Assembly: GCF_024623785.1 (NCBI RefSeq)
Contig: NZ_JANKBZ010000011.1
Coordinates: 124,001-188,000 of the forward strand
Source: Archangium lipolyticum
GTDB lineage: Bacteria; Myxococcota; Myxococcia; Myxococcales; Myxococcaceae
Reading direction: 5' to 3'
DNA: 64,000 bases
The position numbers and the translations under genes were made by a program. Below are positions 1 through 11,337 of the stretch, in pieces. The notes beneath the pieces are model-generated. The model ran no database searches. It was given only the letters and a program-made list of their open reading frames with translations, and was not told the origin of the DNA. Each line of letters starts with the position of its first letter. The first letter of the stretch is position 1.

Positions 1-830
1 AGGACGCCCACCGCGAGGAAGCCCAGCACGAACCAGGGGATGGGCGGTTCCTTCCACGAGTAGCGCACCCTGCCGCCCGCGCCGGAGGCGAGCCCCAGCA
101 CGACGAGCGCGGGAGCCAGCAGCACCACGCGGGTGAGCTTCACCAGCGTGCCCAGGTCCCCCGCCGAGGTGCCCCAGGTGAAGGCCGCGGCCATCACCTG
201 CGCCACCTCGTGCAGCGTGGCGCCCGAGAGGATGGCGAGCTGCGCCGTGCTCAGCCCCAGCAGCGGCCCCACGAAGACGTAGAAGAGGACGCCCACCGTG
301 CCGAGAATGCCGCACAGGCCCACCGCCAGCGTGGTGTCCTCCTCCTCGGCTCGGGTGACGGAGCTGGCGGCCACCACCGCGCTGGCGCCGCAGATGGAGG
401 TGCCCACGGCCAGCAGCGTGCCCAGCTTCTCCGGAACGCCGAAGCGCTGCGTCACCCAGCGGATGCCCAGAATGCCGCCGACGATGACGGCCAGGGCGAG
501 CAGCAGCACGCGCGGGCCCACCTTCGCCACCAGGCCGAAGTCCAGCCGGGCCCCCATCAGCACGATGCCCAGCCGCAGCACCGTGCGTGCCGAGTAGCGC
601 GTGCCCTCCGTCAGTAGGGCTGGCAGCCCCATCGCGGAGCGGAGCGCGATGCCGATGAACAGGGCCACCGTGAGCGGCCCCACCACCTTCAGCCCCGGGA
701 GCATGGCGAGCCAGTAGCTGGCCACCGCCAGCCCGGCGGCGAGCCCCAGGCCCGGCAGGCGTCGGCGCCAGACTCCCCCCGGAGGAGATGCGGCGGTGGT
801 GGCGGCAGGAGTAGCGAGAGGAGCAGTCAT
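1..830 (-). CDS. YeiH/UPF0324 family putative sulfate exporter (3' end outside window)
   Basis: The reading frame begins at ATG 830-828 and stays open to the window edge, giving about 276 residues of a multi-pass membrane protein. The conserved family motif GTSICGASA is present, and hydrophobic helices run throughout (for example the stretch around GIVLMGARLDFGLV). UPF0324/YeiH proteins are inner-membrane proteins annotated as putative sulfate exporters; transport is inferred for most members. The gene lies 119 bp downstream of the SoxB-like gene on the same strand and probably shares its transcript, which fits export of sulfate or another oxidised sulfur product. The C-terminus is missing only because the window ends. 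Confidence 0.88.
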   Translation of the reverse strand, partial: MTAPLATPAATTAASPPGGVWRRRLPGLGLAAGLAVASYWLAMLPGLKVVGPLTVALFIGIALRSAMGLPALLTEGTRYSARTVLRLGIVLMGARLDFGLVAKVGPRVLLLALAVIVGGILGIRWVTQRFGVPEKLGTLLAVGTSICGASAVVAASSVTRAEEEDTTLAVGLCGILGTVGVLFYVFVGPLLGLSTAQLAILSGATLHEVAQVMAAAFTWGTSAGDLGTLVKLTRVVLLAPALVVLGLASGAGGRVRYSWKEPPIPWFVLGFLAVGV

Positions 831-949
831 TTCGTGTTCTCGTTCCATCCGGGAGGGCTCGGGTGACGCGCACACCGGCCCGGTGCTCCTCCCAGTTCGG
901 TTTCGTGTCAGGCCGCGGCGGAAGGCGTCCGCGCCATCTCGGCCAAGGC

Positions 950-2566
950 TCACTGCACCTGCTGGGTGCGCAGCACGGGCGGGAGGTCCTCGCCCACGGC
1001 GCGCCCTTGCAACGCGTCGTTCAGACGCGGCTTGCCGGCGAGGAAGCGGCGCACCGCCTCGTGCGCGTCAACGTCCAGGACGCGCGGCTCCTGGACGCCG
1101 GGAATCCGGCACACCATGTCGGGGGCATCGCCCTCACGCTCGCAGGCCGTCACGGTGTAGAGGCGGTCGTCCTCCACCGGCTTGCCACCGACTTCCAGGG
1201 CGAGGAGGCGCTTGCCCTTGGGCGCGTCGGCCCGGAAGCGCAGCGTCATCCCCGAGGGGCGCGGCAGCCACCCGCCAAAGCGCTTCTCCGGCTCCCTGGC
1301 GAAGACGTTCTCCAGCTCCTGCTCCCAGAAGGCGCGCAGCTGGCGGCCACTCACCTTGCCCGTCTTCAGCTTGTTGACGATGGGGAAGAAGTTCCACAGG
1401 TCCGCCTCACGCACCGGCCCGGGCAGCAGCGGCGTGCCGAAGCGGAAGCCGTTGGAAAGGCCAATCTCCGTCCCTCCGGCGACGCGGATGGCGTCGGCCA
1501 GCACGTTGTCGAGCGGGTTCTCCACCACCGCGTAGCGCGCGAGCGTCACATCGGTGCGGCCCACCGGGGAGGACAGCTTCGCCTCGTGCGGAGCGAGTGC
1601 GGCGTCCACCAGCCGTGCCACCCGCGGGTCCTCGGGGAAGCGCGAGGCGGTCAGCTCGATGAGCTCCCAGCGGCGGTCCACCACCCTGCCCTCCTCCACC
1701 CACAAGTCCAGCCGCCCGAGGAAGGAGCCGAAAGCGCCGGGCTCCACCACCCAGCTCCCGGCCTGCTCAATCGGCGCATAGGTGCGCTCGTGCGTGTCGC
1801 TGGACAGGTGGACGTCCACCCCGGGCACCTTGGCGGCGAGGCCCACCGCCTTGGCGAGCCCCACATGCGTCATCAACAGCACCACCTGGGCCCCCTCGCG
1901 CTCGCGCACCTCCCGCACGAGCGCCGGCAACTCCTCCGGGCCGTCGTAGCGCAGGCCCTGGCTGTAGCCCGGGGGTTGGCGGCGCGGGACGTCCGGGTCC
2001 GTGAAGCCGACGACGGCCACCTTCACCCCACCCACCTCCTTCATGAAGTACGGCGGGAAGAGGCGCTCTCCGCTCGCCGCATCGCGCAGGTTGGCGGCGA
2101 AGAGCGGATGCTTCAGCTCGCGAGCCCGCTGCTTGAGCACCTCGGGGCCGTACACCACCTCCCAGTTGCCGGGCACCGCGGCGTCCAGCCCGAGCGCGTT
2201 GAGGGGCTCGACGAGGACGCCGCCCTCGGTGAGCGCCGCCGCGCCCGAGCCCTGAATCGTGTCTCCGGCGTCGAGCACCAACACCTCACCGCCGCGCTCG
2301 GCGCGAATCCGCTGGATGGCGGCGGCCACACGGGCAAAGCCGCCGGCCTCTTCAATCCGCTCCTTGCCGCCGTGCCAGAAGAGCTCGGGGTGGGCGCGCA
2401 ACTGCGCGTGCAGGTCCGCCACATAGAGGACGGTGAGCTGCTTGCGCTCGGGCTCGGGGGCGCTGACGGCCAGCGAGGAGATGGAACCCGGCCGCGGCAA
2501 GGTACAGCCGGAGCCCAGGCCGCCCAGCGCGAACAGCGCGCCGAGCAGCGAGAAGAGACGCATCAT
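950..2566 (-). CDS. SoxB-like 5'-nucleotidase/metallophosphatase family lipoprotein
   Basis: A 538-aa protein with a signal peptide ending in a lipobox (LGSGC, Cys about residue 21), so it should be an envelope lipoprotein. The N-terminal metallophosphatase domain shows the metal-site motifs DLHAQL, DAGDTIQGSG, GNWE, MTHVG and SSDTHE. The C-terminal 5'-nucleotidase domain contains NPLDNVLAD and a substrate-site region around FRFGTPL. GNWE followed by VYGPEV, in place of the GNHE of nucleotidases, is the pattern of SoxB, which hydrolyses sulfate from the SoxY-bound thiosulfate intermediate. No soxXYZA genes are visible, so the substrate is uncertain and a nucleotidase is the alternative. The rhodanese, CcdA, YeeE and YeiH neighbours favour sulfur chemistry. 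An ECF-type promoter lies just upstream (2601-2629). Confidence 0.82.
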   Translation of the reverse strand: MMRLFSLLGALFALGGLGSGCTLPRPGSISSLAVSAPEPERKQLTVLYVADLHAQLRAHPELFWHGGKERIEEAGGFARVAAAIQRIRAERGGEVLVLDAGDTIQGSGAAALTEGGVLVEPLNALGLDAAVPGNWEVVYGPEVLKQRARELKHPLFAANLRDAASGERLFPPYFMKEVGGVKVAVVGFTDPDVPRRQPPGYSQGLRYDGPEELPALVREVREREGAQVVLLMTHVGLAKAVGLAAKVPGVDVHLSSDTHERTYAPIEQAGSWVVEPGAFGSFLGRLDLWVEEGRVVDRRWELIELTASRFPEDPRVARLVDAALAPHEAKLSSPVGRTDVTLARYAVVENPLDNVLADAIRVAGGTEIGLSNGFRFGTPLLPGPVREADLWNFFPIVNKLKTGKVSGRQLRAFWEQELENVFAREPEKRFGGWLPRPSGMTLRFRADAPKGKRLLALEVGGKPVEDDRLYTVTACEREGDAPDMVCRIPGVQEPRVLDVDAHEAVRRFLAGKPRLNDALQGRAVGEDLPPVLRTQQVQ

Positions 2567-2600
2567 CGTGGAGCACCTTGAGTGAGAGGGACAGCGGAGA

Positions 2601-2629
2601 GGACACGAGGCGTGCCACGCGAAGTTCCC
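2601..2629 (-). promoter_or_regulatory. ECF sigma promoter, copy C (upstream of soxB-like gene)
   Basis: Read on the minus strand, GGGAAC (2629-2624) is followed after exactly 17 nt by GTGTCC (2606-2601). The GGAAC -35 element is typical of ECF sigma factors. The same elements with the same spacer occur at 3556-3584 and 4876-4904. The -10 element lies 35 nt before the start codon at 2566. Confidence 0.75.
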
Positions 2630-2650
2630 GAATCGCAGTCAAGGCAGGCA

Positions 2651-2992
2651 TCACTCCCAGGCCGACATGGGGCCGAGGTTGAAGACGTCCTGGAAGCCAC
2701 GATCCTTCAGGAGGCGCTCGGCGCGGCTGCTGCGCGCGCCACTGCGGCAGTAGATGACGAGGGGCTTCTCCGGCGACCCGAGCTCGGGGAGCCGCCGGAG
2801 CAATTCCTCCACGGGGATGTTCACCGCACCTGGCAGGTGCCCGGCGGCGAACTCTTCCGGAGTACGGACATCCACCAGCGTGGCGCCGGCCTCGACCCGT
2901 CGATGGGCCTCGGCCCCAGCGGAGCGGTTGTGCGCACAGGAGACGAGGAACAGACCGAGGAACAAGGCTGAGACGACGAGAACGGCCTTCAT
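2651..2992 (-). CDS. Rhodanese-like lipoprotein
   Basis: A 113-aa protein starting at ATG 2992-2990. This start is chosen because it gives a clean lipoprotein signal peptide (MKAVLVVSALFLGLFLVSC, lipobox LVSC); a longer frame from 3064 adds a non-signal leader. The single rhodanese domain contains VDVRTPEEFAAGHLPGAVNIP and the active-site loop CRSGARSS with the catalytic Cys. Rhodanese domains carry persulfide sulfur, and this one would do so at the envelope face. It follows the ccdA remnant on the same strand and precedes the soxB-like gene, consistent with a role in envelope sulfur transfer. Confidence 0.9.
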   Translation of the reverse strand: MKAVLVVSALFLGLFLVSCAHNRSAGAEAHRRVEAGATLVDVRTPEEFAAGHLPGAVNIPVEELLRRLPELGSPEKPLVIYCRSGARSSRAERLLKDRGFQDVFNLGPMSAWE

Positions 2993-3079
2993 GGAGCGGC
3001 TCCATCGGATTCCGGAGGCCCACGGGCCTCCGAGGGAAGAGGTACGGCCAGGTGAGAGCCTCAAGGGAGGACAAAGGAT

Positions 3080-3547
3080 TCAGCGGCCTCGGTGCATGGC
3101 CGCCCTGTCGGACAGCCCCGCGGCATAGGTGCCGAGGTAGAGCGCTCCCATGGCGGGCTCCGACGTGGAGGAGGCGGTATAGGTCACCCGCCCGAGCAGG
3201 GGCCGCGCCTCACCCTCCAACCAGGGAATGCGGATGAGCCCGAGCTGCTTGAGTCCCAGCAGGAAGAGCGCGAGCCCGCCGAACTGGAGGAGCCCGCTCC
3301 GGTGCTCCGCGAGCGCCCCACCCACGGCGGTGGCCGCCATCCCGAGCGCGACGAACACGGAGCCGAGCCCCAGCGAGAACGCGAGCGCCACACCCCACGG
3401 CCGCCGCACGCCACTCCCCGCCTCCCGCAACTGGGACAGGGACACGCCCGCGAGGAAGGACAGGTAGAGCGGGACGAGTGGAAGGACGCAGGGTGACAGG
3501 AACGTCAGCAGGCCCGCGAGGAAGATGCCGGGAAGACCGAGACTCAT
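3080..3547 (-). pseudogene. Truncated CcdA-family thiol-disulfide transporter
   Basis: From ATG 3547-3545 the frame encodes 155 aa beginning with the CcdA hallmark GIFLAGLLTFLSPCVLPLVP, which carries the first redox Cys in a Pro-Cys-Val-Leu-Pro context. CcdA proteins usually have about 220-240 aa, six helices and a second Cys in a GWTPC-type motif. Here the sequence passes directly from EARPLLGRV to TYTASSTSEPAMGALYLGTYAAGLS, a junction best explained by an in-frame deletion that removed the second-Cys helix. It then ends after 11 unrelated residues, losing the last helices. It is therefore probably non-functional, although transcription may persist from the ECF-type promoter at 3556-3584. 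Confidence 0.7.
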
Positions 3548-3555
3548 GCCCGCGA

Positions 3556-3584
3556 GGACACGAGCGGAGCCCTCGGAAGTTCCC
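3556..3584 (-). promoter_or_regulatory. ECF sigma promoter, copy B (upstream of ccdA-like gene)
   Basis: On the minus strand GGGAAC (3584-3579), a 17-nt spacer and GTGTCC (3561-3556). It is identical in both elements and in spacing to the copies at 2601-2629 and 4876-4904. It lies between the anti-sigma gene stop and the ccdA-like start; the -10 element is only about 8 nt from the ATG, so the transcript would be nearly leaderless. Confidence 0.75.
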
Positions 3585-3596
3585 GGCCGCGCGCCC

Positions 3597-4358
3597 TCAA
3601 GGAGCCAGGCGGGCCAGGGCGTCGACGAGCACCGGCGTCTCCAGCTCGGAGACGGCCAACGCGGCCTGACCGCCCCCGCGCGACGCCACGCAGATGCGCT
3701 CACCGAGGGGGCCCTGCGTGCAGCGCGTCTCCTCTCCGGCGAAGCTCGCCGCCTCCCGCGCCGCGGTAGAGCCCGGCGGCGGCAGGAAGAGTGTCATCGC
3801 CTTGCCCTCCTCGTGCCGGTACAGCAGCGAGGCGGAGAGCTGTCCATGCAACCGGCAGCGGCGGGCGCCTAGCAGCGTCGCGCCGGGCACCACCGGCACC
3901 TCCACCGCATAGCCCACCTCCTGCTCTACCCACGCCTTCACCGCGGCCGGGTCCGGGGATTCGAACTCGCAGGGGGTGGCACGCGAGAAAGCCTTGAGGT
4001 GGTGCCGCTCGAGATCCATCGCCAGCGCGTCATTCATGGCGCCAGGCCACGACGACCAGAGGACGCCCACGGACGCGAGCGCCGCCGCCAGGCCCACCGT
4101 CCATCGCCGCCGCCGGGAGGCGGGGCGGGCGCGCGGAGCCAGCCGGGAGACACGCTCCGTCAGCTCGGGCGGCACGTGCGTCTCCGTGGCGGCCTGGGCC
4201 TTCAGCGACTCGCTCAGCGAGACATAGCGGGCCGCCTCCCGGGCACAGCCCACGCATCGCGACAGGTGCTGCTCCACGGCCTGCCCCTCGTGTGCCTGGA
4301 CCTCTCCGTCGAACCACGCGGAGAGACGCTCCTGCCACTCCGGGCTACAGGCTTCCAT
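3597..4358 (-). CDS. Zinc-finger anti-sigma factor
   Basis: A 253-aa protein from ATG 4358-4356. The N-terminal zinc anti-sigma (ZAS-type) motif is visible as HLSRCVGC following a cytoplasmic helical segment, then one membrane span (about WTVGLAAALASVGVLW) and an extracytoplasmic C-terminal domain with several Cys residues (TPCEF, RRCRLHG, TRCTQG, RICVAS). Such proteins hold an ECF sigma factor at the membrane until a periplasmic signal releases it; the Cys-rich outer domain would suit a redox or sulfur signal, which is inferred. Its start overlaps the sigma gene stop by 14 bp, indicating translational coupling. Confidence 0.88.
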   Translation of the reverse strand: MEACSPEWQERLSAWFDGEVQAHEGQAVEQHLSRCVGCAREAARYVSLSESLKAQAATETHVPPELTERVSRLAPRARPASRRRRWTVGLAAALASVGVLWSSWPGAMNDALAMDLERHHLKAFSRATPCEFESPDPAAVKAWVEQEVGYAVEVPVVPGATLLGARRCRLHGQLSASLLYRHEEGKAMTLFLPPPGSTAAREAASFAGEETRCTQGPLGERICVASRGGGQAALAVSELETPVLVDALARLAP

Positions 4359-4866
4359 GTGCCTTCTCCTTCTCGAGGAAGTCGAGCATCGCCACCCGGG
4401 CCCGCGCAAGGCGCGAGCGCACGGTGCCCACCGGGCAGCCCTGCACCTGGGCGATCTCCTCGTAACTCAGCTCTTCGACTTCGCGCAGCCACAGCGCGTC
4501 ACGCCACTCCGGGGCCAGCGACTCCAACGCCGCCTTCATGCCCGAGCTGAGCGTCTGGGCGTGCAGCTCCGCCTCCAGGTCCGCGGAAGGCTCGGAAGGG
4601 GCATCCTTGCCCAGCCCACCCTCCAGCACTTCCAACCGGGGACGCAGGCCCCGGCGGGAGTTGAGGAAGGTGGTGCGCTGCACGGCGAGCAACCACCCCT
4701 TGAGCCGCTCCGGGTCGCGCAACTCGCCACGCCGCTCCAGAGCGCGCGCCACCGTCTCCTGCACGAGGTCATCCGCCTCCGCCGGGCTGCCCGTCAGGCG
4801 GCGGCCTACCCGTCGTAGGGCTGGCAGGTGCTCCAGGGCACGTTCGATGAAGGACCGGCTGCTCAC
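4345..4866 (-). CDS. ECF-family RNA polymerase sigma factor
   Basis: A 173-aa protein from a GTG at 4866-4864, chosen because GGAG lies 5 nt upstream and the ECF domain begins right after it; the longer open frame has no sigma-like sequence. Region 2 is visible around EADDLVQETVARALE and region 4 as LSYEEIAQVQGCPVGTVRSR, the recognition helix-turn-helix. It is followed by, and overlaps, a zinc anti-sigma gene. Its own promoter at 4876-4904 matches promoters before the ccdA-like and soxB-like genes, so it probably autoregulates and drives the sulfur cluster. Confidence 0.92.
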   Translation of the reverse strand: MSSRSFIERALEHLPALRRVGRRLTGSPAEADDLVQETVARALERRGELRDPERLKGWLLAVQRTTFLNSRRGLRPRLEVLEGGLGKDAPSEPSADLEAELHAQTLSSGMKAALESLAPEWRDALWLREVEELSYEEIAQVQGCPVGTVRSRLARARVAMLDFLEKEKAHGSL

Positions 4867-4875
4867 GTTTCTCCA

Positions 4876-4904
4876 GGACACGGCGGCGGTCGAGAAAAGT
4901 TCCC
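4876..4904 (-). promoter_or_regulatory. ECF sigma promoter, copy A (autoregulatory)
   Basis: On the minus strand GGGAAC (4904-4899), 17 nt, GTGTCC (4881-4876), placed 9 nt upstream of the GTG start of the sigma gene. One of three identical-element copies in 2.3 kb. Confidence 0.75.
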
Positions 4905-4963
4905 GAGGGATGATGCCACCGCAGTGGAGGAGCCCTCCTCCCGCGGCGGCAGACGCACCGGGG

Positions 4964-5425
4964 CTACGGAGCGGACGTCGCGCCCAGGCTCGGAGTCCCC
5001 GCGCTCGCGTTCGGTCGCGCTTGCAGCACCTGGGCGAGGTACATGCCGGCGAACATGGTGGGCACGAAGACGAGCAACTGCGTCGCGCCGGTGGCGAGCG
5101 AGGTGAGCGCGGGTCCTGGGCAGTAGCCGCCAAGCCCCCAGCCCACGCCGAAGAGGCCCGCGCCCACGAGGAGCTTGCGGTCCACCCCGCTGGCGGAGAA
5201 GGCGGGGAACTTCGCGGCGAAGAGGGGCCGCTCCCGCTTGTGGATGAGGGGCCGCAGCGCCGCGTGCACGGCGATGGCGCCGCCCATGACGAAGGCGAGC
5301 CGGAAGTCCCAGTCGCCGACGATGTCGAGGAAGCCCAGGACGTTGGCCGGGTCCGTCATGCCGCTGAGGCCCAGGCCGAGGGCGAAGAGGAGGCCGCTGA
5401 GGAACGCACTGATGTTGGGACGCAT
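4964..5425 (-). CDS. YeeE/YedE family sulfur transport protein, C-terminal-half type
   Basis: A 153-aa membrane protein from ATG 5425-5423, the first Met in front of the hydrophobic domain (MRPNISAFLSGLLFALGLGLSGM). The motifs GMTDPANVLGFLD and GVGWGLGGYCPGPAL, with a conserved Cys, are those of the DUF6691 half of split YeeE/YedE transporters. The family moves thiosulfate or related sulfur species through the inner membrane. It lies 10 bp downstream of the other half on the same strand, so the two probably form one heteromeric transporter. Confidence 0.88.
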   Translation of the reverse strand: MRPNISAFLSGLLFALGLGLSGMTDPANVLGFLDIVGDWDFRLAFVMGGAIAVHAALRPLIHKRERPLFAAKFPAFSASGVDRKLLVGAGLFGVGWGLGGYCPGPALTSLATGATQLLVFVPTMFAGMYLAQVLQARPNASAGTPSLGATSAP

Positions 5426-5435
5426 GGGGAGCTCT

Positions 5436-5861
5436 CTAGAAGACGTGGCGGGCCAGGAAGACGGTGAGGATGCCCGTGGCCATGAAGGTGAGCGTGGCCG
5501 CGATGGAACGGGCCGAGCCCCGGCTGATGCCGCAGACGCCATGTCCACTGGTGCAGCCGTTGCCCAGCCGCGAACCGAAGCCGACCAGCAGGCCGGCCGC
5601 CACCAGCAGGGCCACTCCGCCCGCGCTCAGGGACACCGGAGCCGCGAAGGACGCGGGGCGCAGCCACGCCAGCAGCAGGCCGCCGGTAACCAGCCCGCCG
5701 AAGAAGAGCACGCGCCAGGCGATGTCGCCACGAACGGGCGCCAGCAGCGAGCCCACCACACCGCTGATGCCGGCCACCCGGCCATTGGCCAGGAGGAGAA
5801 GGGAGGCACTCAGCCCGATGAGTGCTCCGCCCAGGAGAGGAAGGAGGAGGGAAGAAGTCAT
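5436..5861 (-). CDS. YeeE/YedE family sulfur transport protein, N-terminal-half type
   Basis: A 141-aa protein with about four membrane segments. It contains [18 protein letters not shown], the conserved two-Cys motif of YeeE/YedE proteins whose Cys residues relay sulfur compounds through the pore. A second typical segment is VAGISGVVG near the N-terminus. It pairs with the following gene (10-bp gap). The cluster around it (rhodanese, SoxB-like, redoxin) makes thiosulfate or polysulfide the likely cargo; the exact substrate is inferred. Confidence 0.9.
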
Positions 5862-5942
5862 GTCCTTTTAGAGCCAGGCTCCTGGAAGAGGATTCACCCG
5901 TTCAGCAACCGCGCCGCTTCGGGGCCGGTTGGAGGGGTGAAG

Positions 5943-6449
5943 CTAGCGCGCGTGCGCCTCGAGCAGCTCGCGCACCCTCCGCTCGAAGAAATCCTGGTCC
6001 CGCTCCCCGCTGACCGACGCCACGATGAGGCCCCGCGCATCGATGAAAACGGTGGAGGGCACCTGGTTCACCCCCAAGGGCCCGAGCACCTCCCCTTCCG
6101 CATAGGCCAGGCGCATCTGCACCCCAAGCTGCTGCGCCACCGTGCGCACACGCTCCACCTCGAGCAGGGAGAGGGCCACGAAGCCCACGCCCTTCCCCTC
6201 GTACTCGCGGCGGACCTTCTCGAGTTCGGGCAACTCCCGAACGCAGGAGAGTCAACCAGGCACCCAGAGGTTGATGACCCAGGGGCGGCCCAGCAGCGCC
6301 TGGCGATCCAGCGGGGTGCCATCCGCGAAGTGCGCCTTGAACGTGTCCGGCACCGGGCGGTGGGGTTTATCGTAGACGTCGCAGCCGGAGGCCAGCACCC
6401 ACAGCCCCAGCAGCAGCCTCCCGAGAGTGTCCCTGCGGCTCATCGACAT
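5943..6449 (-). CDS. TlpA/thioredoxin-like lipoprotein with in-frame UGA at the active-site Cys (candidate selenoprotein)
   Basis: Read from ATG 6449-6447 (AAGGAG 8 nt upstream), the frame encodes a signal peptide with lipobox LASGC, a thioredoxin-like N-terminal strand (PWVINLW), a UGA at 6254-6252, then LSCVRELPEL, a cis-Pro loop (QVPSTVFID) and a normal C-terminus: 168 residues counting the UGA. Aligned to the WxxWCxxC motif of TlpA proteins, the UGA falls precisely on the first catalytic Cys, giving UxxC (residues 66 and 69). A 7-bp hairpin with a G in its loop lies 17 nt past the UGA (6224-6242). Either UGA is read as selenocysteine or a TGC codon mutated to TGA and the gene is dead. The lengthy conserved downstream frame and the hairpin favour recoding; the decayed ccdA nearby is a caution. 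Proposed role: envelope thiol or persulfide reduction. Confidence 0.7.
6224..6242 (-). promoter_or_regulatory. Candidate bacterial SECIS hairpin
   Basis: On the minus strand, GTTCGGG (6242-6236), loop AGTTG (6235-6231), CCCGAAC (6230-6224): a perfect 7-bp stem. The loop begins 17 nt after the UGA and has G at its second position. Bacterial SECIS elements recognised by SelB sit about 16-37 nt after UGA with a G in the first two loop positions, so geometry and loop agree. Confidence 0.55.
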
Positions 6450-6526
6450 CGCGACGTCTCCTTCAACATCGGTGATGGTAGACTTTTGGGGGCCTGGACG
6501 TCTGGGTCTACGTGCTTGCTATAGAC

Positions 6527-7519
6527 TCACCGCCGCCCCGAAGCAGTTGACGGCCCTGGCGTCAGCCCCGTCAGGACGCCGGCGAGCGTGGCGATATGCC
6601 GCTCGTCGGTGCCACAGCATCCGCCGAGCAGGCGCGTGCCGAGTTCCGCGTGCACGCGGGCCATCTCCCGCGCGAAGGCGTCCGGGGGCTCGCTGTCGAG
6701 CTCCGCCCGCCCGTCGAGCTCCTCGGGTGAGAGGCGGGAGGTGTTGGCCTGCAAGCCCACCACGCGCTCGCCGAGTGAGGGCCAGGCCGCCAGCTGGCGC
6801 GCCATCCCCTCGCGAAAGACGTAGGGATGGACGCAGTTCACCATGTACGCCGTCGGGCGCGCGCCGGGCAGGGCGTCGATCCGCGCCACGGCCTCACCCA
6901 GCGGGGTGCCGTCGAGCAGCGTCCCGGTGGGACGCAAAACGAAGCTCAAGAGGAACGGCGCCCCCGTGCGCGCCATCGCGAGCGCCAGACCCTCGGCCTC
7001 CGAGAGGGCCGGCAGCGCCTGGGCCACGAGGAAGTCCACCTCCGCACGCGCGAGCGCCTCCACGTGCGGCGCGTGGAACGCCGCCGCCTCCCCGCGCGGC
7101 AGGGCCTCCGCGGGCTGGTAGGCGTCCCCGCGACACCCGACGAGCCCGCCGATGAAGACGTCTGCGCCCCGGTCGCCGACCTCGTCGCGCAGTCCCGCCA
7201 GCAGCCCCACCGCCTTGCCGAAGACGTCCCGGCCGGAGAGGCCCGCACGCGCGAGCCGCTCCGCGTTCGCGCGCCAGGTGGGCGTGAGGAGGAGGGTGGG
7301 CAGGCCGTGGCGCAGGCCGATATCGCGGTAGTCGCGGTAGATGCCGGCGAGCGCCTCGCGCCCCTCCGGCCTGAAGAGGAGGCCCGCGTTGGCCACGTGC
7401 GGGTCCAGCAGTCCCGCGGGGTGGCGGCGCAGGCGCTCGACCACGGAGCCTTCGGCGAGCAGCAGCGGCGCCTCGTGCAGGGCGCGGAGGAACGGTGCGT
7501 GTCTCGCCAGGAGTCCCAT
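6527..7519 (-). CDS. Homocysteine S-methyltransferase family protein
   Basis: A 330-aa protein with the zinc site of the family: MVNCVHP (first Cys) and the C-terminal LGGCCGTDERH (two adjacent Cys). The N-terminal AEGSVVERLRRHP replaces the usual DG.M.T.L. start. These enzymes transfer a methyl group from S-methylmethionine or similar donors to homocysteine or another thiol. The start codon overlaps the stop of the upstream dehydrogenase gene (TGATG), so the two are co-translated. The methyl donor cannot be told from sequence. Confidence 0.85.
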   Translation of the reverse strand: MGLLARHAPFLRALHEAPLLLAEGSVVERLRRHPAGLLDPHVANAGLLFRPEGREALAGIYRDYRDIGLRHGLPTLLLTPTWRANAERLARAGLSGRDVFGKAVGLLAGLRDEVGDRGADVFIGGLVGCRGDAYQPAEALPRGEAAAFHAPHVEALARAEVDFLVAQALPALSEAEGLALAMARTGAPFLLSFVLRPTGTLLDGTPLGEAVARIDALPGARPTAYMVNCVHPYVFREGMARQLAAWPSLGERVVGLQANTSRLSPEELDGRAELDSEPPDAFAREMARVHAELGTRLLGGCCGTDERHIATLAGVLTGLTPGPSTASGRR

Positions 7520-8577
7520 CAGCGCCCCTCCGTCATCGTCAGCACCATCCGGAACTTCGCCTCGCCGGACTTCATTCGCGCGAAGGCCTCGCCCGCCCTC
7601 TCGAGCGGCAGAGTCTCGATGCGCGGCAGGACGTTGGCAAGGACGCTGAAGTCCAGCGTCTTCTCGGCCTCGAACGGCGTGCCGGTGATGGTCCCTTGCA
7701 CCAGCCGCTCGCCCACCACCAGTGGGCCGGGTGAGACGGTCAGCGGGGCCTTCCCGACCCCTACGACGAGGAGGGTTCCCTGCGGCGCCAGGGCCGGCAG
7801 GAGCGCCGACGCCGCGGCGCTGTCCGAGATGGTCGTCATGACGACCTGGGCGCCGCCCATCTCGTGGAGGCGGGCGACAGCATCCTCCTGCGCGCTGTCG
7901 ACATAGGTGTGCGCCCCCAGGCCGAGAACGTCATTCGCGATGTCTGCGCCGCGCCCGATGGCCACGACCTTGAAGCCCATCTTGCGCGCATACTGGACTG
8001 CGAGGTGGCCCAGGCCGCCGATGCCCTGGATGGCGACGAGGTCTCCTGCCTGCGCGCCCGACTTCTTGAGGGCGTTGAAGGTCGCAATCCCCGCGCACAG
8101 CAGGGGCGCAGCTTCCTCGGAGCCGAGCGCGTCCGGGATTGCCACCAGGCCTGTGCTTCGCGCGACCATCATCTCGGCATAGCCGCCGTCCTGCGAGGTG
8201 CCGACGAAGGGCTGGTTCCCGCAGAGCTGGAACTGCCCGCGGCGGCACTGGTCGCATGCATTGCAGTGCCCCCCGAGCCGGCCCACGCCGACGCGCTGGC
8301 CCACCCTCCAGAGTGCGGGCGTGCCGGCACCCACCGCGGCGATCCGGCCGACGACCTCGTGTCCGGGGACACGCAGGAACTGCTGCCCGTCGATGGTGCT
8401 GGCATCCGCGCCGCAGATGCCACACGCCTCGACCCGGAGCAGCACTTCTCCCGCCCCAGGCTCCGGCGTCTGCCGCTCGACCAACTCCAGCACTCCCGGC
8501 CGGGTCGCCTGCATGGCGCGGTACGTCTTTGCCAAGGCCATCTCCTGCACGCCGTCCTTCGAACGACTCCTGGTCAT
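7519..8577 (-). CDS. Zinc-dependent alcohol dehydrogenase (MDR family)
   Basis: A 352-aa protein from ATG 8577-8575, which has AAAGGAG 6 nt upstream; longer frames lack a better start. Catalytic-zinc residues lie in EACGICGAD and PGHEVVG, the structural zinc site is CNACDQCRRGQFQLC (four Cys), and the Rossmann motif is GIGGLGHLAVQYA. Family members oxidise alcohols or reduce aldehydes with NAD(P). It is translationally coupled to the methyltransferase gene downstream. The substrate is unknown. Confidence 0.9.
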   Translation of the reverse strand: MTRSRSKDGVQEMALAKTYRAMQATRPGVLELVERQTPEPGAGEVLLRVEACGICGADASTIDGQQFLRVPGHEVVGRIAAVGAGTPALWRVGQRVGVGRLGGHCNACDQCRRGQFQLCGNQPFVGTSQDGGYAEMMVARSTGLVAIPDALGSEEAAPLLCAGIATFNALKKSGAQAGDLVAIQGIGGLGHLAVQYARKMGFKVVAIGRGADIANDVLGLGAHTYVDSAQEDAVARLHEMGGAQVVMTTISDSAAASALLPALAPQGTLLVVGVGKAPLTVSPGPLVVGERLVQGTITGTPFEAEKTLDFSVLANVLPRIETLPLERAGEAFARMKSGEAKFRMVLTMTEGR

Positions 8578-8779
8578 GGTTGCTCCTTTCATGGGTTCGG
8601 CGCCGCCAGCGCGGCCGCCACGCCGCGGGTCGCGGCATCCAGGGCGCCGGCGACATAGCCGGGGCGGGCCTCTCCTGAGAGTCCGAGCGAGCATGAGTCA
8701 TGAGCGCGAGAGCGCGGGGACGACGGGTGGCCAAATCCGGGGACGTATCACCGCGATGCCTGGGGAATCCTTCCAAGGG

Positions 8780-9256
8780 TCAGCTGTACTTGTTGCGTCC
8801 TGCCATGACGCCGCCGTCGACATCCCAGATTGCGCCGGTGACCCAAGAGGTCTCGTTCGACAACAGATGGGCGATGGTCCGCGCAACATCCTCTACGCGG
8901 CCCACACGGCCGATCGGATGGAATCCGTTGAACCCCTGAAGCGCACTGTGAACCTGCTCCTTCGGGATGAACCCCTCGTAGATGGGGGTCTCGACGACTG
9001 CCGGCGAAACCGCGTTGACGCGGATGCCATGGCCGGCCAACTCCATCGCCAGGTGCTGCGTCAGCGAGTGAAGTCCTGCCTTGGCCATCGAATAGGCCGA
9101 GGAGGGAGTGGCCTGGATGGCCTGCCTGGCCCACATCGAGCCGATGTTGACAATCGCGCCCCCCTTGCGCAGCGCGACCATGGACCTGGCGACGGCCTGC
9201 GTGATGAAGAAGGTGGCCTAGTTGCTCCCTTGCGGGTACCTGGTGAACGTCGGGAC
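8780..9256 (-). pseudogene. Broken short-chain dehydrogenase/reductase gene
   Basis: The C-terminal two thirds of an SDR is intact: GGAIVNIGS (catalytic Ser strand), the YSMAK catalytic Tyr/Lys pair, GIRVNAVSP and the WDVDGG end. Upstream the same frame reads [13 protein letters not shown], the usual SDR helix, but is interrupted by TAG at 9220-9218. Before that come only about a dozen plausible residues (VPTFTRYPQGSN), with no TGxxxGxG cofactor motif or NNAG. A 133-aa product could start at 9181 but would lack the NAD(P) site. It is best read as a 5'-deleted relic. Confidence 0.75.
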
Positions 9257-9289
9257 GCAGCGGTCGGCGACGGCCCGACACGGAAAGCC

Positions 9290-9571
9290 TCAGGTGGCCT
9301 GGTAGATGCGGACGTCCGGGGCGGCGTCGAGGAGCGGCTTCAGCGCGGTCACGACGTCGGCGGTGAACAGGTCGGTCTTGAGGTAGGCGCTGGCCTGCTG
9401 CGCCGTGTCGAACCCGTGCAGCACCTGCACGTCCTCGTCACGGACGAGGAGCTCCTTCGACTTCGAGCCGGCGATCGTCTCGAGGAAGGGCGCCTTGTAG
9501 CGTTGGTAGACGCCAGCGGCTGCAGGGCGGTTGGCGGGAGAAATCTTCAGGGTGATTTGCAGGTAGACCAT
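9290..9571 (-). CDS. Small antibiotic-biosynthesis-monooxygenase-like (dimeric alpha/beta barrel) protein
   Basis: A 93-aa protein starting at ATG 9571-9569 with GGAGGACA upstream. The pattern of N-terminal strand (YLQITLKIS), central helix ending in ETIAGSKSKELLV, and C-terminal helix plus strand (APDVRIYQAT) resembles the ABM/dimeric barrel family, whose members are cofactor-free monooxygenases or heme-binding proteins. It is transcribed divergently from a LysR-type regulator 209 bp away, the usual arrangement for a regulated target. Function uncertain. Confidence 0.6.
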   Translation of the reverse strand: MVYLQITLKISPANRPAAAGVYQRYKAPFLETIAGSKSKELLVRDEDVQVLHGFDTAQQASAYLKTDLFTADVVTALKPLLDAAPDVRIYQAT

Positions 9572-9780
9572 GGGTGTCCTCCGTCTTGGCTTCTGTGCTC
9601 CGTGAAAGGTAGGCTATCCCGTCGGAGCAGCTTCGACGGGCAGCCTTCGGCTCTGGTACGAGCCTGAGAGGGGAGGTCGGCCCCGGCGCACCGTGGTCCG
9701 ACGCAGGATTCATCGTCCAGAGCACCCGCCGCCGCAATCGAGAGTTTCTTGGCATGCGGCAAAGGAAATCTTGACCGGCT

Positions 9781-10695
9781 ATGAGCGCACCTGAATACCT
9801 CAACGCCCTGCGTGCCTTCGAGGCGGCGGCCAGGCACGAGAGCTTCTCCGCCGCGGCCGCCGAGCTCCACGTGACCCCGGCGGCGGTCGGACAGCTCGTG
9901 CGAAGCCTCGAGGACGTGCTCGGCACACCGCTGTTCCACCGGGGCACGAGCGGACGCAAACGGCTCGTCCTCACCGAGGCGGCCCAGCGGGCCCTGCCGG
10001 ATATCCGTGCGGGGTTCGAGCGGCTGAGCGCCGGCGTCGCGCGGCTGAAGGAGGGCTCGTCGACCGGCGTGCTGACCGTGACGGTCAGCCCCGCCTTCGC
10101 GGCCAAGTGGCTCCTGCCGCGCCTCGAGCGATTCCAGGCCGCATGGCCGGAGCTGGACGTGCGGCTCGACGCGTCCACCGAGTTGCTCGACTTCGCCGCG
10201 CGCGGCGTCGATATCGGCGTGCGCTACGGCGCTGGGGTCTGGCCCGGGCTGACCGCCGAGAAGCTCTTGGACGAGGAGGTCTATCCCGTTTGCTCGCCTG
10301 CCCTCCTGCGGCAGAGCCGCCGTCTGCGCCGGCCGTCGGATCTGGTCGGCCTACGGCTCATCCACGACCGGTCCGTGGATGCCCGCTCGGGATTCGCCAC
10401 GTGGGATGCCTGGCTCGAGAAGGCGGGCGCAAGGGACGTCGGCACGAAGCGAGGCCTGCGTATCAACAACTCCGCTGCCGTGCTGCAGGCGGCAATCGAC
10501 GGACAGGGCGTGGCGCTGGCCCGCAGCATCATGGCGCATGACGACCTCGCGGCCGGACGGCTGGTGCGCCTGTTCCCGGAGGTGGAGTTCTCCTCGGTGC
10601 TCTCCTACTACGTGGTCTACCGGCCCGATTGCGCCACGCTCCCCAAGCTCGTTGCGTTTCGTGACTGGCTCGTCCGCGAAGCGTCCACGGGGTAA
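9781..10695 (+). CDS. LysR-family transcriptional regulator (GcvA-like)
   Basis: A 304-aa protein with an N-terminal winged helix-turn-helix (LNALRAFEAAARHESFSAAAAELHVTPAAV, given here in outline: recognition helix around AAELHVTPAAVGQLV) and a periplasmic-binding-like effector domain from about residue 95 (VLTVTVSPAFAAKWLLPRL). The AFEAAAR and SFAAKWL-type motifs are those of the GcvA subgroup. The divergent intergenic region 9572-9780 should hold its operators. Likely target: the divergent monooxygenase-like gene and perhaps the SDR relic behind it. Confidence 0.92.
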   Translation: MSAPEYLNALRAFEAAARHESFSAAAAELHVTPAAVGQLVRSLEDVLGTPLFHRGTSGRKRLVLTEAAQRALPDIRAGFERLSAGVARLKEGSSTGVLTVTVSPAFAAKWLLPRLERFQAAWPELDVRLDASTELLDFAARGVDIGVRYGAGVWPGLTAEKLLDEEVYPVCSPALLRQSRRLRRPSDLVGLRLIHDRSVDARSGFATWDAWLEKAGARDVGTKRGLRINNSAAVLQAAIDGQGVALARSIMAHDDLAAGRLVRLFPEVEFSSVLSYYVVYRPDCATLPKLVAFRDWLVREASTG

Positions 10696-10740
10696 TCGTC
10701 GGGGCTAGGTGCCCATTCGATCCAGTGTAGCTGGTGGCCC

Positions 10741-11337
10741 GTGCCAGGCGCGCGAGAACGGGCCTGGTACTACGAGGTAACTTCGGAAGTGACTGCAACG
10801 GCCGAGGTGGAGTTGACGCGCGACTACCTGCTCTGGTGCGAGCGCACCGGCAGGCCCGTGGACTGTCTGCGCCTGCTGACGGAGAGCCCCACCATCAACG
10901 GGGATGGTCGTTTCGCGCTCGCCATGGCCCTGGCCAAGGGCGCCGTGCTGGACACGAGATGCTGGAGGCGTTCAAGGACATGGCCGACCCTCACGCCATG
11001 GTGGTGGCGGTTCTCTGGACCTGGACGACGTACATGGTCCTCGTCTCCATTCCCGACGTGACGATCTCGAAGGGCCTCGCAGCCGTGATGACCGCCACGA
11101 AACGAGCTGCGCGCAGCGGGCGAGCGGTATGGCAAGCTCATGGGCCGGAACGCGGCGCGAGCGTTCGCCATGCGGGCCATGGCAGCCATCGGCAACACGG
11201 CGCCGGGGCTGGCTGCGAAGGTGCCGACGCTGCCCGGCTCGATGCAAGCGGCTGTACAAGCCGAGACGCAGGTGGGCATCCGGCTTGCGGCGGTGGGAGA
11301 AGTGGAGACGGTCGATCAGAGACTTGGGAGGAGAACC
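10741..11337 (+). pseudogene. Frameshifted relic of a SitA-like polymorphic toxin lipoprotein
   Basis: Coding-like sequence passes through three frames. The first reads WYYEVTSEVTATAEVELTRDYLLWC through ALAKGAVLD; near 10951 an apparent 2-nt insertion shifts it to EMLEAFKDMADPHAMVVAV and a membrane-like segment WTWTTYMVLVSIPDVT; near 11100 it shifts again to NELRAAGERYGKLMGRNAARAFAM through VGEVETV. This order resembles the delivery part of myxobacterial SitA toxin lipoproteins as I recall them; no search was possible. The signal peptide at the start and the C-terminal toxin domain are missing. It ends directly against a well-formed immunity-like gene. Confidence 0.65.

Follow-up and report, generated by a model that had tools for sequence, protein, structure and literature searches.

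A gene on the minus strand of an Archangium lipolyticum contig raises the question of whether its in-frame UGA codon specifies selenocysteine (Sec) or marks a reading frame that has begun to decay. Within the window, which is the whole 64,000-nucleotide stretch of DNA that was analysed, the frame runs from an ATG at position 6449 to a TAG at 5943 (5943..6449, minus strand; 168 residues plus the stop codon), and its sole interruption, when the sequence is read with TGA as Sec, is the UGA at 6254-6252. The list of open reading frames splits the gene at this codon, and 6233-5943 appears there as a frame starting with TTG. An earlier note on this DNA had proposed that the frame continues past the UGA through a TlpA-like domain and that the UGA aligns with the first cysteine of a CxxC motif, and both statements proved correct.

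A predicted lipoprotein with a UxxC active site

A Shine-Dalgarno-like AAGGAG (6458..6463, minus strand) can be read 8 nt upstream of the ATG, and the encoded signal peptide, with its hydrophobic stretch, ends in the lipobox LASGC, whose Cys23 (6381..6383, minus strand) is invariant in the family alignment and is, from the motif, the predicted site of acylation. Next comes a redoxin/AhpC-TSA domain that matches both PF00578 (38.6 bits; gathering score 26) and PF08534 (36.9 bits, likewise above gathering), and the residues C-terminal to the UGA constitute the remainder of this domain. The UGA is codon 66 (6252..6254, minus strand) and occupies the first position of U66-x-x-C69 in the active-site motif W-V-P-G-U-L-S-C (UGA-Leu-Ser-Cys). 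Its alignment column holds TGA in Sec-form relatives and the cysteine codons TGC or TGT in Cys-form relatives, and the codon for the putative resolving residue, Cys69 (6243..6245, minus strand), is invariant.

An AlphaFold2 model built from 27 aligned sequences has a thioredoxin fold (pLDDT 90). Among solved structures, the model lies closest to Bacillus ResA and related thiol-disulfide oxidoreductases; TlpA is also among the best PDB matches, and the TM scores for ResA and TlpA structures are about 0.7 (query) and up to 0.88 (target). As in such oxidoreductases, the first long helix of the model begins with UxxC, and the protein has a putative cis-Pro loop, whose proline, P131, is invariant in the alignment.

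Immediately 3' of the UGA lies a candidate bacterial SECIS element (6224..6242, minus strand), which the earlier note had described accurately. This hairpin, GTTCGGG-AGTTG-CCCGAAC, has a perfect 7-bp stem and a 5-nt loop (6235-6231) with G at loop position 2, and the loop begins at nucleotide 17 after the UGA, leaving a gap of 16 nt. The published bSECIS model calls for a loop of 3-9 nt with G as its first or second nucleotide, a stem of 4-16 bp, a spacing of 16-37 nt and a minimum free energy of at most -7.5 kcal/mol (PMC13188914). With a computed energy of -10.1 kcal/mol, the hairpin agrees with this model in every respect.

By itself, such a hairpin is weak evidence and not significant, because in a window this rich in GC an equally good hairpin follows 4-12% of TGA triplets. 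Of the 1314 TGA triplets on both strands, 158 (12%) precede a bSECIS-like hairpin with an energy of -7.5 kcal/mol or lower; when seven or more base pairs and -10 kcal/mol or lower are demanded, the number is 54 (4%). These frequencies, together with the truncation of the neighbouring ccdA gene, are what one would expect if a TGC codon had mutated to TGA in a decaying gene and the hairpin were a chance product of GC-rich sequence. Nothing in Rfam matches at the hairpin, where there are only unrelated sub-threshold hits. A covariance model of the SECIS element, run against the genome, gave no other convincing copy: the next hit (E 0.019) is not convincing because it starts at model position 11 and hence omits the UGA part.

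Conservation of the UGA and the hairpin among Myxococcota

Comparison with relatives separates decay from function. Our protein search covered 96 genomes of the source genome's taxonomic family, and a second search covered 195 genomes of the phylum. In 23 of the 96 family genomes the search found a closely related gene interrupted by a single internal TGA, which on inspection is the same codon in all 23, and these homologues align end to end with the TGA inside. The phylum search adds three inspected TGA forms from two other families of the order (G155, G156 and G157), bringing the inspected set to 26 genomes in 13 genera of Myxococcota, with protein identity down to about 37%. It also returned G152, a TGA form by search that lies outside the inspected set. 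Thus, the alignment of close homologues that the note had recommended reveals a retained UGA, rather than a cysteine codon, accompanied by a conserved hairpin.

Several characteristics of these sequences point to selection on the hairpin itself. First, its location and its spacing from the UGA are identical in every aligned TGA copy, and 98.4% of the alignment cells in the stem remain paired, compared with at most 57% after sliding the partner strand. Second, two stem pairs covary, one changing from C-G to U-A in A. lipolyticum and the other from U-A to C-G in L017, and each exchange is accompanied by an amino-acid change. The same change as in L017 occurs in L099, and L101 has a U-G at the second stem pair. 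Third, the codons that build the hairpin are unusual for these genes. The loop leucine codon is TTG in 22 of 22 copies, a codon that makes up 2.8% of leucine codons elsewhere in the same genes; where the loop encodes phenylalanine, the codon is TTT in all three cases, compared with none of 81 phenylalanine codons elsewhere; and the alanine codon at the base of the stem is GCT in 20 of 23 copies (4.2% at other positions). The simplest reading of these sequence patterns is that selection acts on the RNA, beyond what the protein alone would need. Two kinds of TGA copy have imperfect stems, with a C-A mismatch in L024 and L030 and an A-C mismatch in L025, and these fail a simple energy cut when the stem is kept ungapped.

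For the region 3' of the UGA, comparison of 66 pairs of related loci gives a median dN/dS of 0.19, and the sequences accordingly indicate that the protein downstream of the codon is under purifying selection. Conservation across genomes, as judged from these alignments, is what makes the hairpin significant. A nonsense mutation, the alternative that the note itself had raised, does not account for a TGA that recurs at one position in 26 genomes from 13 genera and is followed by an open frame in them, for purifying selection 3' of the UGA, for rare loop codons that have become fixed, or for the lack of the hairpin in Cys relatives. We consider this explanation refuted by the cross-genus conservation of both TGA and hairpin, and very improbable for the gene at hand.

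A different possibility is that the UGA ends a first product and that ribosomes begin again at 6233, where the hairpin loop contains a TTG, yielding two polypeptides. An open reading frame from 6233 to 5943 with this start does exist. However, five loci (L017, L032, L034, L099 and L101) have TTT at the corresponding position, which is not a start codon, and a polypeptide begun there would contain neither of the active-site residues, both of which are invariant; moreover, the hairpin and the selABCD genes would be left unexplained. We therefore reject translational restart and assign it a negligible probability. Decoding of the UGA as Sec is the reading that we carry forward.

The family is apparently distributed in a patchy manner in Myxococcota. 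The five other genomes of the source's own genus all carry selC and lack the selenoprotein gene, and the gene is therefore dispensable. Positions 1-10764 of the window match L052 (G031:C4), a locus from another genus, over approximately 10 kb at 94-97% DNA identity, gaps and insertions aside. Because of this near-identity and the absence of the gene from five congeners, recent transfer of the selenoprotein region is suggested.

Selenocysteine machinery and cysteine-containing relatives

If the UGA is decoded as Sec, the organism should possess the necessary machinery, and the look-up proposed in the note finds all four genes in the genome. The selC gene (C11:77955-78049; 73 bits), which ARAGORN calls as tRNA-SeC, resides on the same contig approximately 46 kb ahead of the window start, and searches of the genome return selB (320 bits), selA (575 bits) and selD (379 bits). 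Furthermore, in SelD (L050, contig C47) the active-site stretch CAGUAAKI includes an in-frame TGA, and the alpha subunit of formate dehydrogenase (L112, contig C40) has a TGA at its U-H site, RIUHSS. A bSECIS-type hairpin follows each codon, with a loop of GGTTC or GGTCT, the latter being that of formate dehydrogenase. These UGAs and hairpins imply that A. lipolyticum evidently decodes Sec elsewhere in its genome. The conserved UGA and hairpin, together with a complete set of selA, selB, selC and selD, support the selenoprotein interpretation put forward in the note.

The machinery accompanies the TGA form in other genomes as well. A selA gene is present in every TGA-form genome tested for it, and selC scores at least 61 bits in all those tested except G156, a TGA-form genome that is 86% complete, in which selA was found and selC gave no hit. 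In G157, which also bears the UGA form, selA lies in two pieces in different open frames (C147:88223-89684), possibly as a result of a frameshift or an assembly error.

Six relatives have no internal TGA (those in G050, G083, G087, G106 and G177, and the second copy in G155). The codon at the UGA position, read in L026, L040, L042 and L100, is TGC or TGT, and the first three of these loci have no comparable hairpin, the stem being lost or weak. Four of the six Cys-form relatives (G050, G083, G106 and G177) occur in genomes from which selA is absent. G050 and G083, the genomes with the two closest Cys forms, appear to have no convincing selC: their top-scoring tRNA-Sec candidates reach 45-48 bits, the range of tRNA-Ser hits in A. 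lipolyticum. G087 and G155 have the Cys form, yet keep selA and selC. G155 contains a natural Sec/Cys paralogue pair, with the UGA form at C9:22928 and a form with no internal stop at C5:25933.

These observations bear on a further explanation, in which a near-cognate tRNA reads the UGA and inserts Trp or Cys instead of Sec. Bacteria can show readthrough that is independent of SelB, and such decoding is possible in principle. Near-cognate reading is at odds with the catalytic cysteine found at the UGA position in all non-UGA relatives read, with a SECIS-type hairpin kept at the right distance, and with the residence of four of six Cys forms in genomes that have no selA. In addition, several relatives terminate the selenoprotein gene itself with TGA, which must therefore be a working stop codon. 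We reject this explanation on the basis of hairpin conservation, the catalytic-Cys alignment and the loss of selA alongside Cys forms, and regard it as highly unlikely in comparison with insertion of Sec.

In the gene tree, Cys rows are scattered singly among Sec rows and the deep branches are weak. This pattern suggests that a change from Sec to Cys has occurred repeatedly; the direction is suggested only, because the tree is poorly resolved at depth. We tentatively entertain, with somewhat less than even confidence, the idea that these proteins form an undescribed Myxococcota selenoprotein family in which Sec is ancestral and has given way to Cys on several occasions, for the most part in genomes that lost the Sec-decoding genes. 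If Sec is ancestral, this would be the rarer direction of change and would constitute a natural experiment on the benefit of Sec to an extracytoplasmic thiol reductase.

Proposed function, genomic setting and known systems

The locus is almost certainly a functional selenoprotein gene, with Sec at residue 66 of a predicted lipid-anchored ResA/TlpA-like protein. Computation establishes the open frame, the conserved UGA, the covarying SECIS stem, the constrained codons, the genes for Sec decoding and the fold family; the insertion of Sec itself, the location of the protein, its substrate and its redox partner are inferred. SelB carrying Sec-tRNA-Sec would bind the hairpin just 3' of the UGA and place Sec at residue 66, and decoding of the UGA in this manner would yield the full-length lipoprotein. 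The mature protein would be held outside the cytoplasm via lipid-modified Cys23, with Sec66 as the attacking nucleophile and Cys69 as the resolving thiol. Like ResA and TlpA, it would most likely act on periplasmic proteins, reducing their disulfides or other forms of oxidised sulphur, and would plausibly be returned to the reduced state by a CcdA/DsbD-type electron carrier in the membrane.

A partnership with CcdA is only suggested, because the gene neighbours are not conserved: no conserved operon was found around the selenoprotein gene, and neighbours differ between genomes. In three relatives (G031, G021 and G075), an intact ccdA-thioredoxin fusion resides near the selenoprotein gene. Relative to these, the window's ccdA (3080..3703, minus strand; start at MSLGL within; partial match to PF02683) has two deletions. 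One, of roughly 93 bp, is internal and takes out the second WTPC motif; the other is larger and takes out the C-terminal thioredoxin part. The note was thus also right in calling this gene damaged. The genome contains two other DsbD_TM genes, and thus local loss of ccdA need not deprive the selenoprotein of a reductant. We also considered a Sec codon hidden in ccdA, and rejected it, since the residue concerned is Cys in the intact relatives and deletions have shortened the window's copy. Assignment of ccdA as TsoB was likewise rejected, the NCBIfam hit being far under the cut-off. Elsewhere in the window, an SDR reductase fragment (8780-9181), seemingly lacks its N-terminal half; a sequence 95% identical to it is found in G075 (L065), next to HMT and LysR genes.

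Downstream of the selenoprotein gene are sulphur genes, namely YeeE/YedE halves and a rhodanese lipoprotein. The nearest, a YeeE/YedE-type sulphur transporter half (5436..5861, minus strand; PF04143), lies 81 nt past the selenoprotein stop codon and is linked to it by position only. These neighbours are consistent with a sulphur-redox role, and are not proof of one.

Such a gene would add a selenium-dependent extracytoplasmic redox protein to the myxobacteria, most of which live aerobically in soil. Because standard gene callers end a frame at UGA, the family is easily missed or taken for a pseudogene. Matched Sec and Cys forms are available in relatives with and without Sec machinery, and the unusual constraint on the SECIS element, with its fixed stem, spacing and rare codon, offers a clean case for studying the recognition by SelB of a hairpin that differs from the formate dehydrogenase element.

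The predicted fold matches that of Bacillus ResA and Bradyrhizobium TlpA, which are membrane-anchored thiol reductases. ResA has a glutamate (Glu80) three residues past its second active-site cysteine that tunes the active site. E72 of the window protein, three residues past Cys69, occupies the same position, and Glu80 mutants are among the structures matched. In contrast, ResA and TlpA use CxxC with ordinary cysteine, and their identity to the window protein is about 20-25%. No NCBIfam model (June 2026) claims the protein, the best being the ResA equivalog NF002854 (47.9 bits compared with a cut-off of 170); the families of Haft and Tolstoy (2025) were compared via NCBIfam only. Among the matches listed, plasmid records contain only distant CxxC TlpA proteins of less than 35% identity.

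Several selenoprotein families share parts of this architecture. The UGC-containing TlpA disulfide reductase and the ResA-like WAxxUGC selenoprotein (NF041054) likewise combine a ResA/TlpA-like domain with an active-site Sec, but their motif is UGC rather than UxxC, and the score of the window protein is 24.9 bits where the cut-off is 300. The VPGUxxT thioredoxin-like selenoprotein (NF041383) has the letters VPGU in common with our active site, but its motif ends in Thr instead of Cys, and hmmscan gives no match to the window protein even at an E value of 10.

Also among the closest counterparts are UxxC selenoproteins of PF00578, PF08534 and cd02966, which are already catalogued (PMC13188914 Table 1). 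Prx-like UxxC proteins were listed in 2006 for Geobacter and relatives (PMC1794560 Table 3). The Prx-like thiol:disulfide oxidoreductases (PF00578; Geobacter, Syntrophus and Desulfotalea) and the 'Redoxin family protein' (PF08534) have in common with the window protein both the Pfam family, with PF00578 found here at 38.6 bits, and a Sec-first UxxC, which here is U-L-S-C. Compared by description only, the proteins reported here differ in carrying a lipobox and in having been found only in Myxococcota. The 2006 list for Anaeromyxobacter dehalogenans comprises only FdhA, SelD, peroxiredoxin, proline reductase, thioredoxin and a DsbA-like protein (PMC1794560), and does not name the lipobox UxxC type. 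We conclude that the window protein is a member of a known UxxC kind of selenoprotein, whose catalogued representatives were compared by description, and that it represents a family probably uncurated for Myxococcota.
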